Assembly (NCBI RefSeq): GCF_025685425.1
Contig: NZ_JAGTAS010000021.1
Location: 62,001-126,000 of the forward strand
From: Terriglobus albidus
GTDB taxonomy: Bacteria > Acidobacteriota > Terriglobia > Terriglobales > Acidobacteriaceae
Reading direction: 5' to 3'
Length of the DNA: 64,000 nt
The notes beneath the pieces were generated by a model that made no database searches, was not told where the DNA came from, and saw only the letters and a program-made list of their open reading frames with translations. Position numbers and translations under genes: made by a program. This document shows, one piece after another, positions 12,330-50,717 of the stretch. The stretch's first letter is position 1. Each line of letters starts with the position of its first letter.

Positions 12330-12740
12330 GGAAGCGCTGAAGGCGCGTTCTATATCAGCCTGGGGCCAACGCCCCAGGTTTTGTCGCCCAAAAGATGTTA
12401 AAGGGCTGAAGGCCCGTCCTATATAAGAGTCTTCAATCAGACCGTATCGTTTCGATAGAGCATTTTCCCTGTAGGTGTAGAGTAGGGTTTTCCGCATCTA
12501 TGGGTGTTTTCCGCAGATAAAAACGCCACTCCTCTTGCAGGATACCCAGCAACAGGAAAGATGCCGTAGGCATACAACGGTTTCAGGAACCGTTTCGTTT
12601 GTGACGATTGGGGATTATAGATCGGGCCTTCAGCCCTCATGCCTGTTAGCTATCCGTAACCTGGGGCGTTGCCCCAGGCTGGTATAGGTCGCGCCTTCAG
12701 CGCTCAAAACATCTTTCTTGCCCAATCAAGAATGGGCTGA
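12330..12740. repeat. Composite inverted repeat: outer hairpin modules around a ~110-bp palindromic element
   Basis: No gene is visible between 12224 and 12800. The left arm (about 12335-12425) carries three hairpins: GCGCTGAAGGCGCG, a CCTGGGGC/GCCCCAGG stem and GGGCTGAAGGCCCG. The right arm (about 12625-12715) carries the same three in reverse order and orientation. Between them lies copy D of the 110-bp element (12457-12565). The whole is therefore an approximate palindrome of nearly 400 bp, best seen as an interspersed repeat with a second repeat at its centre. Confidence 0.75.
12457..12565 (-). repeat. Copy D of the ~110-bp palindromic element
   Basis: Left end AGAGCATTTTCCCTGT, right end ACAGGAAAGATGCC; the interior read on the minus strand matches the other copies (a TGCTGGGTATCC start, an internal GCGTTTTT/CGGAAAAC stem region, CCCATAGATGCGGAAAA). 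Opposite orientation to copies A, B and C. Confidence 0.85.
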
Positions 12741-21136: not shown

Positions 21137-21155
21137 AGGTGCTGGGCTTGATTTT

Positions 21156-21262
21156 AGAGTGTTTCCCTGTTGCCGGGTATCCCGCAACGGGCGTGAAGCG
21201 GCGTATTCATTGCGGAAATGCCTACAGACGCGGAAGCCCTACATTGCACCCGCAGGGAGCTC
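21156..21262 (+). repeat. Copy C of the ~110-bp palindromic element
   Basis: Left end AGAGTGTTTCCCTGT, interior TGCCGGGTATCCCGCAA, GGCGTATTCATTGCGGAAATGCC and CGCGGAAGCCCTAC, right end degenerate (GCAGGGAGCTCC). It fills the divergent gap between malic enzyme and the methyltransferase, so it lies in or next to both promoters. Confidence 0.8.
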
Positions 21263-21287
21263 CATGCCTGTGTGCGACGATTAAGGA

Positions 21288-22491: not shown

Positions 22492-22534
22492 CGTTAAAAG
22501 TTAAAAGGTGAAAGTTAAAGCGTTAAGGCATGGG
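22492..22534 (+). repeat. AGTTAAA-type heptamer run
   Basis: Degenerate tandem heptamers (GTTAAAA, GTTAAAA, GGTGAAA, GTTAAAG, CGTTAAG) ending in GCATGGG, 11 bases after the methyltransferase stop. A closely similar run lies at 28076-28106. Confidence 0.7.
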
Positions 22535-23127: not shown

Positions 23128-25383
23128 ATGAGATTGATCGACAACGGAACCATGGTGGCGTTGGGCTGGACTCTGCTGCACTTCTGCTGGCAGGGAACAG
23201 CAATTGCAATGTTCTACAGCATTGCCGACCGCCTGACGCATAAGGCTGGAGCAAATACGCGTTATCTGATTGCACTTGTTGCGACGCTGCTGATGCCGCT
23301 GGCCGCCATCGCAACCTATGTCGACCAGTCACGGCTGGTGGTGCACATCTCGCACGACGGACAGACTGTGGCCGCGTCGCAGCTTGGAGCGTTTCACGAA
23401 GCGATTGTGAAAGAGATTCCAGTCGCTGCACCGGTCGTACAGGAGAGCGAGCTGTGGATCGCCTGGAATGCCGATCGCATCCTGCCTTGGGTCGATGGCA
23501 TCTGGATCGGTGGTGTGCTGCTGCTCGCATTGCGTGCCGCGGGTGGATGGTGGCAGTTGGAGCGGGTTCGGCGGCGTGCCATCGGGGTGGTCCCGGCGGA
23601 GCTGGAGCGTATGTTCCAGCGTATCAACCGGCAGCTTCGCACCGGGCGGAACGTCGCCCTGCGTTTCTCCGATGAGGTGCTGTCGCCGCTGGCAATGGGC
23701 GTGTGGCGTACGGCAGTGATTCTGCCGGCGAGCATTCTGACTCAGCTTGAGCCGGAGGAGCTTGAGTCGGTACTGGCGCATGAATTGGCGCATATCCGCC
23801 GGTGGGACTACGCTGCAAACCTGCTGCAGACGGCGATCGAGAGCCTGCTCTTCTTCCATCCGGCGGTGTGGTGGATCAACCGCCGCGCGCGCGATCTGCG
23901 CGAGGTATGCTGCGATGCCGTAGCGGCGCAGACCTGTGCCGATCCGGTGGTTTACGCGCAGGCGTTGCTGCGCCTGGAAGAACAGCGTACGGAGCGGCTG
24001 CGGCTGGCCGTGGCGCTCAATAACGGACACACGCCGCTGCTCGGCAGGGTGAAACAGATTTTAGGAGAGGGTCGACAGATGGAGACAGGAATGAAGAGTG
24101 GCGTACAGGCTGCAGTAGCCGGGGCGGTAGTTGTAGGACTCATGCTGGCGCCGAAGATGGCGCAGGGATTGAAGCAGCATGCGAAGATCGTGCCAATTCC
24201 AGCTCCGCTGATGGCCGAAAACATCGCGGCTCCGCAGGCTGCGCCCGCACCAGCCCTGGCTCCCGTGGCTGTTGAGCAGCAGCGCCCCGCACCACTGGCG
24301 CAGCCACAACCTGAGCCGGCAGCAACGCCGTTGGCGAACCCGGAACCCGAAGCAATGACCAACATCGCTCCGCAAGTTAACTCTTCGATTCAGGTTGCAG
24401 TGGCTCCGGCCGTCAATGTCGCGGTTGCAGCGAATGTGGCTCCGGTCATCTCCGCGTCTCGTAGGGCCATGTTTCAGGATGCCGCCAAAGGCAGTGGCGC
24501 TGCATACCTGCAGCAGATGAAGGATGCGGGCTATCCCCTGGATCTGGATAAGGACCTCGATCAGATCATTGCGATGCGCTCGGTTGGAGTCACGCCGGAT
24601 TACGCCAAGAAGATGGCGGAAGCCGGCTACGGCACTCCTTCGCTGCATGATCTGGTAAGCATGAAGTCGGTTGGCGTGACGCCGGAGTACGCAAAGTTAG
24701 TGGCTGAGGCCGGTTATGGCAAACCCACGCTGCACGATCTGGTCGGCATGAAATCCGTGGGTGTGACACCGGAGTACGCAAAGTCCATCTCTCAACTTGG
24801 AATCGGCACACCGAATCTGCATGACCTGGTTGCCCTGAAGTCGATGGGCGTCACACCGGAGTATGTGGCTGAGCTGAAGAACTCCGGTATTGCCCCTGCA
24901 TCGCTGCACGACGTGATATCGGAGAAGAGTCTGGGCATTACCGGCGATTATGCCAAGCAGATCGCCGGCATGGGTTATGGCTCGCCTTCAGTGCATGACC
25001 TCGTCAGTTTGAAGTCCATGGGGATTACTCCTGAGTACGCAGCAGGCCTGAAGAGCTCGGGGATTCCGGTGCAGAACCTGCATGACCTGGTCAGTATCAA
25101 GTCCGTCGGAGTAACGCCGGAGTATGCGAAGAGCATGGCTGCGGCAGGTTTCACCGATCTGGATGCGCACCAACTGGTCTCACTCAAAGCCCAGGGCGTG
25201 ACGCCGGAGTACACGCGCTGGGTGAAACAAACCTTCCCCAACGCGGATATGAAGACGATTCGCGAGGCCGCAACCTTCCATATCGATGACGCCTTTATTG
25301 CCAAGGCCAAGTCGCACGGCTTCAATAACACCTCGCTGGACAAGCTGGTGAAGCTGAAGATCAGCGGCCTGTTGGAAGACTAA
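23128..25383 (+). CDS. BlaR1-like M56 metallopeptidase with a C-terminal 29-residue repeat array
   Basis: 751-residue membrane protease. N-terminal helices (about 10-70 and 125-140) precede the M56 zinc site: VLAHELAHIRRWD (H218, E219, H222) with the downstream Glu in REVCCDAV. A last helix at about 322-340 leads to an Ala/Pro-rich linker (about 345-440). From about 460 to 700 there are eight or nine tandem 29-residue units of the pattern GVTPEYAxxMxxAGYGxPxLHDLVxMKSV, then a cap starting FHIDDAFIAKAK. By BlaR1 topology the repeats lie outside the cytoplasm in the sensor position. AGGAGG precedes the ATG. Confidence 0.88.
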   Translation: MRLIDNGTMVALGWTLLHFCWQGTAIAMFYSIADRLTHKAGANTRYLIALVATLLMPLAAIATYVDQSRLVVHISHDGQTVAASQLGAFHEAIVKEIPVAAPVVQESELWIAWNADRILPWVDGIWIGGVLLLALRAAGGWWQLERVRRRAIGVVPAELERMFQRINRQLRTGRNVALRFSDEVLSPLAMGVWRTAVILPASILTQLEPEELESVLAHELAHIRRWDYAANLLQTAIESLLFFHPAVWWINRRARDLREVCCDAVAAQTCADPVVYAQALLRLEEQRTERLRLAVALNNGHTPLLGRVKQILGEGRQMETGMKSGVQAAVAGAVVVGLMLAPKMAQGLKQHAKIVPIPAPLMAENIAAPQAAPAPALAPVAVEQQRPAPLAQPQPEPAATPLANPEPEAMTNIAPQVNSSIQVAVAPAVNVAVAANVAPVISASRRAMFQDAAKGSGAAYLQQMKDAGYPLDLDKDLDQIIAMRSVGVTPDYAKKMAEAGYGTPSLHDLVSMKSVGVTPEYAKLVAEAGYGKPTLHDLVGMKSVGVTPEYAKSISQLGIGTPNLHDLVALKSMGVTPEYVAELKNSGIAPASLHDVISEKSLGITGDYAKQIAGMGYGSPSVHDLVSLKSMGITPEYAAGLKSSGIPVQNLHDLVSIKSVGVTPEYAKSMAAAGFTDLDAHQLVSLKAQGVTPEYTRWVKQTFPNADMKTIREAATFHIDDAFIAKAKSHGFNNTSLDKLVKLKISGLLED

Positions 25384-25494
25384 GGGAGTTTTCCCTGACG
25401 GAGTAGTCCAGAGCTTCTACATCTATGGGCGTTCCTCAATGAAAATGCCCCAGTACGCCCTTTTTCTGGGATACCCACGAATAGGGAAAACTCT
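25383..25494 (-). repeat. Copy E of the ~110-bp palindromic element, inside an operon
   Basis: Ends AGGGAGTTTTCCCTG and ATAGGGAAAACTCT; the interior on the minus strand matches the others (GGGTATCCCAGAAAAAGGGCG, CATTTTCATTGAGG, CGCCCATAGATG). It begins at the last base of the M56 stop codon and ends one base before the AAGGAG of the next gene, so it is transcribed as a hairpin between two coupled genes. Confidence 0.8.
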
Positions 25495-25505
25495 AAGGAG
25501 AAACC

Positions 25506-42841: not shown

Positions 42842-43294
42842 CTGTCATCCCAATAAGTCAACTGATAACCGGAGATTGCATCGCCTATCGGCTTCCAGTC
42901 CAACCGCGTTTGGAGAGTTATTGCTTGTAGTCTTTCCCATGTGTAAAGGGTGGGAGAAGCGGGCTTCACCGCCCGCTGATAAGTCAGGAAAGTTAATGGG
43001 ATTTACCCTGGCTGTTTCCGAGAATCGGAACAAAAATACCCAAGGCTATAAAGCCCAACTTTTTTGGATTCGGTAAACCGTGGGCTAAAACCCACGGCTC
43101 CCACCCGGTTCGAGCTGCGCTCGAACACCATGCCCCTGAGGGATATGGGATACCCAGAATCAGAAATTGCGCTAAGCTCACAACGTCATCGAGTAGTTGG
43201 GCAGGTAACTCCAGATTCAGGTCGTTCCAATTCAATTGCCAACGGATAGCAATTGAGTGACACCCTCAGGACAAAATCCGGTACAAAGGTAACT
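42842..43294. repeat. GGTGGGAG...CTCCCACC hairpin module, copy 2, and flanks
   Basis: GGTGGGAG (42949-42956), GCGGGC/GCCCGC hairpin, GGGCTTTATAGCC-like arms, CCGTGGG-CTAAAA-CCCACGG hairpin, closing GCTCCCACC (43097-43105) and TTCGAGCTGCGCTCGAA (43109-43125). Same order of parts as at 26274-26448. The remaining flanks show no coding potential I can support. Confidence 0.65.
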
Positions 43295-43407
43295 AAAGCA
43301 CTTTCCCTGTTGCTGGGTATCCCGGAAGAGCAATGGAGCGGCGTTTTCATTGCGGAAAACGCCCATAGATCCGGAATCCCTACTCTGCACCTACAGGGAA
43401 ATGCTCT
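43295..43407 (+). repeat. Copy A of the ~110-bp palindromic element (best preserved)
   Basis: Ends AAAGCACTTTCCCTGT and ACAGGGAAATGCTCT; internal perfect hairpin GGCGTTTTC-ATTGCG-GAAAACGCC; other shared blocks TGCTGGGTATCCCGGAAGAG and CCCATAGATCCGGAATCCC. It lies 83 bases upstream of the ECF sigma start, probably in its promoter region. Confidence 0.85.
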
Positions 43408-43489
43408 CGGGCCGCATTTGCGGCCCTTTAGTCTTCGCTTTGATGGTGGTCGATGTACTCTCCTCCGGCAGAATCCCGTCCAAACGGGT

Positions 43490-48771: not shown

Positions 48772-48988
48772 TCCTTTAACTCTCAATGTTTCGTACGACC
48801 GCTCACGAAGTTCTTTTGAGAGCTCCACTGCAATTTAGAGCAATTCTCCTAACACTGTAGTGTCGGACAAATCTGTGAGTGCCGTTTTCTTGGAGGAAAA
48901 CGGCGCAAACTGCCAAAACTTCACCCCCAGCGAACTCGTTTGCTGGGAACCCCGATGCTCGCACTACTCCCCTTACGAGAACTGTTCT
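48772..48988. repeat. Intergenic hairpins, no gene seen
   Basis: Contains GCCGTTTTC-TTGGAG-GAAAACGGC (48881-48889 with 48896-48904), very similar to the internal hairpin of the 110-bp element, and a CCCAGC...GCTGGG hairpin (about 48928-48950). Lies between convergent genes. Confidence 0.55.
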
Positions 48989-49102
48989 AGAGCATTTTCC
49001 CTGTTGCTGGGTATTCCGGAAGGGCGTGCACCGGCGTTTTCATTGCGGAAAACGTCCATTGATGCGGATGCTCTGGACTACACCTACAGGAAAAATGGCT
49101 CT
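48989..49102 (+). repeat. Copy B of the ~110-bp palindromic element, abutting murJ
   Basis: Ends AGAGCATTTTCCCTGT and ACAGGAAAAATGGCTCT; internal GGCGTTTTC-ATTGCG-GAAAACG; shared block TGCTGGGTATTCCGGAAGGG. Its right end overlaps the murJ stop codon (49101-49103, minus strand) by two bases. Confidence 0.85.
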
Positions 49103-50717
49103 ATCGCGCAAACTTTCCGAGAATCTGTCCTGGCAGGCGAGAGCCAGTTGCCTTCAGGACAACGAGTACGATACCAAGCCATACGGCGCTGGCTCCAGCG
49201 ATTGCAGAGAGATTTTGAGTGTGGCCGTGCAGCGTGGGCAGCGAGCGTAAACCGGCAGTAATAGCGCCCCAGCCGATGATAGAAGCCAAGAGGGCTCGTC
49301 CCAGTTCGCCAAACTCGAGGCCTGAGATGGGGGTGAGTCGATTGCGTTGCAGCAGCACGACCAGCGCAGTGGTATGCAGCAGAATGCCGGCATTTGACGC
49401 CCACGCCAGGCCTTCGACACCCAGACGGTGAAAGAGCAGCCAGTACACTGGTATGGAGACCGCCGTGACGATCGTGCCGGCAAGCATAGGCGTGAACGTA
49501 TTACCGGCAGCAAAAAATGCGCGGGCATACAGGTTCTGCGAGGTCCACAGAAAGAGCGAGAGGCAGAAGATGGTGAAGAACCACGCCGTCATCTGTGCAC
49601 TGGCCTCATCCATGTGTCCGCCGCGCAGGGTGACGTCTACCAGAGGGCCGGCCAGGGCGATCATCCATCCGGCGGCCAGCAGAGAGGCGGCCATCAGGCG
49701 AGTCACGGCGCGATTGACTGCCTGACCGAACTCATCGAGTTTTCCCTTGCTGTAGAGCGATGCAAAGAAGGGAAGGGAAGCCGCACCGGCCGCTGGTCCA
49801 AGGATGTTCATCGGCGAGTTGAAGAGCTGTTTCGCAAACGCCAGACGCGTAATGTCGCCGACTCCCTGAGAGGCGAAGTAGGTGCGGATCCACTGGTCCC
49901 AGGTTGTAAGGGACTGGCCGATCATGAGCGGCGCGGCAAGCTTGAGCCACTGCAGCAGAGCCGGGTGGCGGAAATCGAGTACCGGCTGCCAGCGCATGCC
50001 CTCCCGCCACGCTCCGAAGATATTGAGTAGAAACATGCCACAAAAGGCGCCCGTGAGCGCGCCAACCGCCAGCGAGTACACCCCGATGCGGCTGTGCAGC
50101 ACGAGAACTCCACCGATAATGCCCAGGTTGTAGATGCTGGGTGTCAGCGCCTGGAAGAGAAAGACCTTCCGCACCATCAGCCTCGAACCAAAGACACCGC
50201 CCGCAAAGAAGAAGAGCTGTGCCGGTAGAAGGATGCGGGTCAGGCTGACGCATAAGGCAGCCGTGGGAGCATCGAAGTGCGGAAACTTGACCGAGACATA
50301 CCAGGGTGCAAAGAACTCGGCGGCAAGAATGGCAGCGCCCAGCGCCAGGATCATGGTGTTCAGAATCACAGACAAGGCGCGATCGCCTTCGGCCTCTTCG
50401 CCGCGTTCTCTGTATCCGCTGAGCAGGCTGACGAAGGTAGAAGAGGCAACGCCCCCGATCAGGAAGTAGTACACCATGTCAGGGAGCTCGAAGGCGCCGA
50501 TGTACGCATCGGTGGCATTGGTGGCGCCGAAGAGATGAGCGATGAGCTTCTGCCGAATCAGAGCAAGAACGCCGCTGCTCATTATGCTGCCGGCCATGAG
50601 CAGCAGTGACGCGGAGAAAGCTGAGTGCGTGGCGCCCGGTCTCAGCCACTGCAGCCACCGGAGCAGCTTGGGCTGGTTGTGGCGGCTCTGCTCCGGCTGT
50701 TCCTGACTGTTTTGCAT
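49101..50717 (-). CDS. murJ: MurJ family lipid II flippase
   Basis: 538-residue MATE/MVF-fold membrane protein with about 14 helices that flips lipid II for peptidoglycan synthesis. SASLLLMAGSIMSSGVLALIRQKLIAHLFGATNATDAYIGAFELPD is the conserved N-terminal helix pair. An N-terminal cytoplasmic tail of about 30 residues is Gln/Asn-rich. The stop codon is built partly from the end of repeat copy B, so the last residues may differ from relatives. Confidence 0.92.
   Translation of the reverse strand: MQNSQEQPEQSRHNQPKLLRWLQWLRPGATHSAFSASLLLMAGSIMSSGVLALIRQKLIAHLFGATNATDAYIGAFELPDMVYYFLIGGVASSTFVSLLSGYRERGEEAEGDRALSVILNTMILALGAAILAAEFFAPWYVSVKFPHFDAPTAALCVSLTRILLPAQLFFFAGGVFGSRLMVRKVFLFQALTPSIYNLGIIGGVLVLHSRIGVYSLAVGALTGAFCGMFLLNIFGAWREGMRWQPVLDFRHPALLQWLKLAAPLMIGQSLTTWDQWIRTYFASQGVGDITRLAFAKQLFNSPMNILGPAAGAASLPFFASLYSKGKLDEFGQAVNRAVTRLMAASLLAAGWMIALAGPLVDVTLRGGHMDEASAQMTAWFFTIFCLSLFLWTSQNLYARAFFAAGNTFTPMLAGTIVTAVSIPVYWLLFHRLGVEGLAWASNAGILLHTTALVVLLQRNRLTPISGLEFGELGRALLASIIGWGAITAGLRSLPTLHGHTQNLSAIAGASAVWLGIVLVVLKATGSRLPGQILGKFAR

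Follow-up and report, generated by a model that had tools for sequence, protein, structure and literature searches.

The five repeats of about 110 bp recognised in the window (the whole 64,000-nucleotide stretch of Terriglobus albidus DNA analysed here) are very probably copies of a MITE, a 116-bp non-autonomous transposon that would be moved in trans by an IS630-family DDE transposase into Y-TA-R targets, with duplication of the TA. The TA duplication, empty sites in related genomes, abundance, IS630-like ends and a near-constant length are observed, as is a central stem well above that found in shuffled sequences. Movement would be by cut-and-paste of the whole 116 bp, delimited by 17-bp ends (TAGAGCATTTTCCCTGT). 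The same plan recurs in families that differ in sequence, and the role of its central hairpin is the point on which readings diverge.

All five copies are present in the window (C25:62001-126000 of the host genome G000, which comprises 6.1 Mb in 58 contigs) at the positions and in both orientations originally claimed, and they score 74-114 bits in a profile search of it. The parts they were said to have in common, namely an end motif, a GGCGTTTTC/GAAAACGCC hairpin and a CCCATAGATGCGGAA block, occur exactly or with mismatches, but none of them is identical in all five. Copy 1 lies on the minus strand at about 12456-12568, including the TA at each end, and its 3' end and hairpin are partly decayed; copy 2 (21155-21263, plus strand) is also decayed. 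Copy 3 (25381-25495, minus strand) sits in the TA of the TAA stop codon of an M56-peptidase-like gene at 23128-25383, and copy 4, given earlier as 43295-43407, extends over 43294-43408 on the plus strand. Here the central hairpin can be read in the sequence at 43340-43363 (plus strand) as GGCGTTTTC-ATTGCG-GAAAACGCC; the automatic stem finder gave an overlapping alternative stem equal in length to the consensus hairpin, and copy 5 is the only one of the five in which it chose the consensus hairpin. That copy (48988-49103, plus strand) occupies the TA of the TAG stop codon of a MurJ-like gene at 49101-50717 on the minus strand. It has a TA in common with an element of a second family at 48836-48989 (plus strand), for which this is the right TA; the family-2 element has TAGAGCAATTCTCCTAA ends and a GCCGTTTTC hairpin, and is 154 bp long with an internal insert. 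Window copies are partly decayed, and only 8-11 of the 17 end bases pair when read position by position, because indels shift the arms out of register. No transposase was found among ten ORFs scanned near the copies.

Several other repeats were seen in the same stretch. Copy 1 is placed between two inverted matches to Acido-Lenti-1 RNA, at 12333-12378 (minus) and 12660-12704 (plus), whose inverted arms are 34 nt long and 91% complementary; these matches point to an acidobacterial host. The M56-peptidase-like gene contains a coding repeat present seven times at 24552-25213 with 87-bp spacing (about 29 residues). The insert in the family-2 element is about 38 bp long and has a small hairpin of its own, CCCAGCGAACTCGTTTGCTGGG. 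Short AT-rich repeats of the type AAAAGTTGAAAGTTAAAAGTTGAA occur at 22496, 28075, 38379, 51856 and 51870.

The prediction that the element is very abundant genome-wide, and so not peculiar to this stretch, is borne out by the first 600 kb of contig C28, where a profile search (C28:1-600000) finds 51 family-1 matches (7 under 95 bp in length) and 7 family-2 matches, with a single element accounting for two of the latter. Were the same density to hold throughout the genome, family 1 would probably number roughly 500 copies. The end 15-mer GAGCATTTTCCCTGT, with at most one mismatch, is found 246 times forward and 246 times reverse in the 6.1 Mb, and the same pattern read backwards, as a control, not once. 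Distances between copies give an idea of how recent the spread is: for 60 unselected copies (50 from G000, 6 from G002, 3 from G015 and 1 from G012) the nearest neighbour is at a median distance of 8.5%, with 2 at 3% or less. Among 137 copies chosen for high similarity, 47 lie within 3%, and the four within 1% are neighbours in arrays. No match to the element was found in plasmids. A link to phages was also considered, as the 15-mer occurs in 35 viral contigs, and was rejected, since no element match there falls below E 0.06.

Some copies are arranged in tandem. Among the host loci fetched, 29 junctions are found in 17 array loci with two to four or more units and a period of 114-116, joined by the linker TA-ATC-GCATTTT or a one-base variant (GTC, ACC). 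Since it is found at loci of G000, G012 and G015, the linker is present in three species: there is a dimer with the ACC linker in G012 (L110) and one with the ATC linker in G015 (L106), and a locus shared by these two genomes (L107 and L109) has a single element followed by the stub of a second end, with linker GTC, where the host has a single element without the stub. The junction sequence has no match in G002. Contigs C55 and C42 terminate inside arrays. The arrays may go back to an ancient dimer whose linker was fixed. Translation of the repeat into a peptide was considered, as one frame looks open by eye, and set aside because 115-bp units would shift the frame.

Evidence for transposition comes from related genomes. 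The window can be compared with G002, G012 and G015 in syntenic blocks that are 84-92% identical. The site of copy 4 (43294) is empty in G012 and G015. G002 carries an insertion of its own about 24 bp beyond that site, in the TA that follows a terminator-like hairpin, and this second site too is empty in G012 and G015. Conversely, an element common to G012 and G015 is missing from G002, where the site reads ...atcTAtagg.... Copy 2 (21155) is likewise absent from G002, with the TA kept on the left and 4 extra bases there, and for copy 3 (25381) the same site is occupied in G002. On a larger scale, 34 full-length copies from C28 were compared with 400 kb of G002, 5 partial ones being excluded. 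Twelve sites are empty, 2 copies are array units, another 2 are also present in G002, and for 18 one flank could not be aligned; a script had counted 14 empty sites, and the number was lowered because two of them are units of the array at C28 301894, for which G002 has a single element. The 12 empty sites read exactly TA in 9 cases, TA plus five extra bases in one, and have no TA in two. In the reverse direction, 13 matches in G002 gave 3 empty sites (one with TA), 2 shared, 3 other, 3 unalignable, 1 far and 1 partial. When both directions are pooled, the site lacks a TA in 3 of 15 empty rows. Insertion takes place at TA, which is duplicated in the process. The target-site duplications and empty sites that the original prediction proposed to look for thus both exist, and full conservation of position in distant relatives, which it had set against a mobile element, is not what is found even in G002, with 12 of 34 sites empty and 2 shared.

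The choice of target goes beyond the TA itself. The base outside it is C or T in 74% of 73 copies with intact ends, compared with 45% for intergenic TA. A stop-codon TA is occupied by 14 of the 48 full-length copies in C28; 12 of these 14 lie in gap-free TA stop codons, family 1 and family 2 alike, and 13 of the 14 sites rejoin to TAA or TAG. Weighting for Y-TA-R makes the excess smaller: 13 such insertions are seen against 4.9 expected of 37 (p 0.0006), where 37 is 48 minus 11 family-1 matches inside genes predicted with a simple gene finder; with all 48, the expectation is 6.3 (p 0.008). Because the element begins with TAG, an insertion in a stop codon leaves a stop.

In its architecture the element has what is expected of a MITE, being short, mostly 114-117 bp with 17-bp inverted ends and no room for a transposase gene. 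The modal length of family 1 is 116 bp including the TA at both ends (18 of 35 paired copies, the others 112-118), made up of TAGAGCATTTTCCCTGT (17), 29 nt, GGCGTTTTC-6-GAAAACGCC, 29 nt and ACAGGGAAAATGCTCTA (17). Family 2, also in the host genome, differs in its ends and in its hairpin (GCCGTTTTC/GAAAACGGC) and is 116 bp long in 6 of 7 paired copies and 153 bp in one. The third family consists of two elements of G010, both 116 bp. Each family would thus keep one plan of about 116 bp: a hairpin at the centre, a stretch of about 29 nt on either side of it, and the inverted ends outside these. In alignment A3 (19 copies, three families), the paired fraction of cells is 95.5% and both sides have changed in 36 cells; neither value is reached by any of 500 shuffles; changes on both sides affect 9 pairs (reached by 2 of 500 shuffles), and the number of further pair types is ordinary (123 of 500). 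Within a family, covariation is modest: among 137 copies the ends have 39 both-side changes against 19 expected, 23 of the 39 pairing, and the hairpin has 2 against 0.3 expected.

The superfamily is found mainly in one acidobacterial family. Model R1 has matches in at least 38 of 399 genomes of the class and 13 of 135 genera, the number of genomes being a lower bound because the best 9 candidates per genome were scored. The 116-bp plan is seen in sequences of at least 9 genera, 8 of them in the host's family and the ninth that of G228. In a sample of the phylum, 16 of 396 genomes have matches, every one in the host's own family. The R1 matches in G064, G093 and G100, at 126-172 bp, are palindromes whose centres are different. 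Those of G100 (L248, L253, L263) and G093 (L250, L255) measure 126-127 and 169-172 bp; with ends of TAGAGC, TAGAAC or TAGGGC type, they are perhaps further IS630-type MITEs outside the 116-bp plan. As a model-free approach, G000, G322, G390 and G374 were scanned for inverted TA-ended repeats of 60-400 bp with at most 3 mismatches in 17. TAGAGC-type repeats shorter than 200 bp are 114-118 bp long except for one family-2 copy of 153, and about two thirds have a perfect central stem of at least 6 at offset 45-49, the others being broken. The scan also shows unrelated TA inverted repeats of other lengths, and the class above 200 bp was only counted.

The central stem is also found outside the host. 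Of the 36 elements in alignment A5, 32 come from other genomes, and in 29 of these 32 a stem of at least 7 starts at positions 40-50, the exceptions being L199, L202 and L247; the best inner stem has on average 10.7 pairs compared with 6.3 in shuffles, 31 of 640 of which reach 9. In the same 32 elements, the pairing of end bases 8-17 is 0.90 inside an element against 0.70 between genomes. Hairpin arms differ between families (GGCG, GCCG, GCAG and GTGG types) with pairing kept, and when the two arms are taken from different genomes the pairing is only 0.50; the corresponding value of 1.00 within elements is by construction, as only the 26 of 32 elements with stems of at least 9 were used, and all were found with a model that holds the hairpin. 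Loops vary from 2 to 7 nt, and therefore it is the pairing that appears to be kept, rather than a protein site of fixed spacing.

It is likely, judging from the ends, that an IS630 transposase moves these elements. Candidate relatives are IS630 elements of about 1030 bp with TAGAGC ends (L218, L219, L220). L219, from G064, encodes a protein with DDE_3 (PF13358) and has the ends TAGAGCATTTCTCCTGTTACTGTAGA and TAGAGCATTTCTCCTGATGGTGTATA, which agree with family-1 ends at 20-21 of 26 positions and with family-2 ends at 20-22, each L219 end fitting both family-1 ends equally well. Over the same 26 bases L218 agrees at 17-21 positions, L220 at 13-21 and L100, an IS630 of G015, at 13-15, and an unrelated IS630 of the host (L101) at 7-8. 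L100 has TAGAGCA in common with the element and GTGTA at the same offset as one repeat end. A class-wide search with its protein gave matches in 35 of 399 genomes (best 7 candidates or fewer per genome); 30 loci from this search had 17 readable inverted-end pairs, 14 with TAGAGC on at least one side. Likewise, 30 loci from named genomes (80 were fetched out of more than 537) had 20 end pairs; in 15 of these, from Acidobacteria and other phyla, one or both sides read TAGAGC, and several of the closest named relatives of these proteins are acidobacterial. Ends of this type are widespread in the IS630 group concerned, and the match therefore cannot be pinned to a particular IS. No element was found at E<=0.01 in the 23 of the 80 named-genome loci that were searched. 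Genomes with R1 matches (38 of 399) and with L100-like IS630 (35 of 399) overlap in 7 cases, where about 3 are expected by chance.

The transposase carrying the same ends, for which the original prediction had suggested a search, was only partly found: similar ends exist on IS630 elements of other Acidobacteriota, and none of that kind was found in G000 or G002. PF13358 has matches in three of the four genomes G000, G002, G012 and G015, and those in G000 and the single-contig G002 belong to IS with other ends. The G015 protein has no match in G000 or G002 at E<=1e-15 among the best 7 or fewer candidates scored per genome. An autonomous copy in the host was looked for by reading the orphan ends in C28:1-600000, and was rejected, as the best of them (C28 113803) leads into an ordinary gene. 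The ends are thus shared with an autonomous IS in another genome, G064; a transposase in the same genome is not required of a MITE where the partner has been lost. PF13358 has no match at E<=0.001 in 9 of 15 chosen genomes (14 of the 15 with R1 elements), so that in these the mover has been lost, was missed or is of another kind. That MITEs of this IS do arise follows from L249, a 159-bp sequence in G064 that by reading looks like an internal deletion of that genome's own IS630 (L219), a MITE near its birth. Given this agreement of the ends (20-22 of 26 positions), the element was probably moved in trans by a transposase of IS630 type, as has been proposed for RUP, the repeat unit of pneumococcus.

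What the hairpin does is less certain. When it was masked from detection, 60 full-length copies diverged from the consensus by 13.9% in the flanks, 2.7% in the hairpin arms and 6.6% in the inverted ends, the last value being favoured by detection. The hairpin is thus about five times less diverged than the parts beside it, and the order (arms, ends, flanks) holds in all three thirds of the copies by flank divergence. Gaps run the opposite way, with 39 in 18 arm columns versus 27 in 58 flanking columns. Private substitutions are as frequent in the arms (1.25%) as outside (1.16%; Fisher p 0.87), with the caveat that variable sites leave less room for private changes. This fits a hairpin that is constrained while lineages spread and unconstrained after landing. 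One reading, which we put forward tentatively, is that the hairpin and the fixed 116 bp (about 11 helical turns) are a cis-acting part, the extruded or bent hairpin folding stiff DNA so that the IS630 transposase can pair the ends. Selection would then act on hairpin and length because they help to bring together two ends of a DNA shorter than the persistence length. If so, the superfamily would be an independently evolving parasite lineage of IS630 elements, in which ends and hairpin arms change in pairs, and not a set of repeated deletion products.

The element may, alternatively, be an ordinary MITE in which the shared length and the hairpin simply reflect descent from one ancestral deletion derivative, the hairpin having no function. 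This is a serious possibility, if somewhat short of an even one. The families can be aligned end to end (alignment A5, 36 elements), which makes a single ancestor likely, and in A3 the hairpin changes on both sides in only 2 of 9 pairs, 5 being invariant. Mere descent is harder to reconcile with stem bases that differ between families while their pairing is held, and with a hairpin five-fold less diverged than its neighbours.

It is improbable that the host maintains the repeats as a structured RNA or a regulatory element, with the hairpin acting in mRNA (on its stability or translation, or on termination at the ends of genes). The family-1 consensus, folded as single-stranded RNA, is indeed strongly structured (-52.1 kcal/mol, z -5.85), stems change together and many copies lie at stop codons; the fold of a G010 copy is ordinary (z -1.38, with 19 of 200 shuffles as good). 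Positions differ between species, however, and no Rfam match was found at E<=0.5 at 11 loci, nor at the window copies at gathering level. For each of the three copies that also occur in G002, the host has an altered hairpin and G002 an intact one, which speaks against a host role, although the data are few; individual copies may nonetheless be of use to the host. A host function acquired after insertion was likewise considered and dropped, since private mutations are not depleted in the hairpin.

The original prediction had left the choice between MITE and REPIN, and the TA duplication, the empty sites and the IS630-like terminal inverted repeats favour the former. REP and REPIN sequences are of the IS200/IS605 kind, which is not known to duplicate its target. 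A REPIN or REP-type element moved by a RAYT (Y1) transposase via a single-stranded intermediate would also be small, abundant, palindromic and often at gene ends, and such tyrosine transposases occur in Acidobacteria and GTAG REPs often give flanking ORFs a TAG stop codon (PMC3733652); this origin is nonetheless very improbable and is set aside because the TA is duplicated, with the 17-bp terminal inverted repeats and the IS630-like ends also against it.

MITEs are commonly regarded as the outcome of many separate deletions. In this superfamily a single layout, nearly fixed in length and with a hairpin at its centre, is repeated in families of distinct sequence in at least nine genera. That allows a test of the idea that small transposon parasites acquire internal structures favouring their own movement, and it accounts for repeats numbering in the hundreds in these soil bacteria, many of which lie in stop codons. 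No account of such elements in Acidobacteria was found in the literature, mostly outside subscription papers, and a word search of the text of a review of prokaryotic MITEs (PMC10969869) gave neither Acidobacteria nor IS630. In the results given for a 2025 survey tool for short palindromes there are 5,307 REP-like predictions in Granulicella aggregans (PMC12306157), which may or may not include the present element.

Compared with known systems, REP and REPIN sequences with their RAYT are, in the descriptions consulted, abundant palindromes that often touch stop codons, as here, but they have units of 20-40 bp and a Y1 transposase. ERIC and Correia/NEMIS are likewise abundant small repeats, with inverted ends and TA termini, and differ in their hosts and in having inverted repeats of 7 and 24 bp, as summarised in PMC2229807. 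The TAGAGC-ended IS630 elements (L218, L219, L220 and relatives) are alike in the terminal 26 bp on both sides and in their TA ends; they are about 1030 bp long with two transposase reading frames, whereas the element has 116 bp, and the central hairpin is absent from the terminal 110 bp read at either of their ends. A further similar system is RUP with IS630-Spn1. The accounts of RUP in PMC2229807 and PMC3049150 describe 107 bp with inverted ends, insertion at TA, IS630-like ends and 108-110 copies, and so resemble the element in size, ends and target. As presented there, RUP is known from one species and with no fixed plan common to many families, whereas many families exist here; the matching IS was, in our case, not found in the host genome. 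By analogy the element works like RUP, and membership in RUP is not claimed. It is a MITE of the same manner of working, with a new and closely kept architecture.
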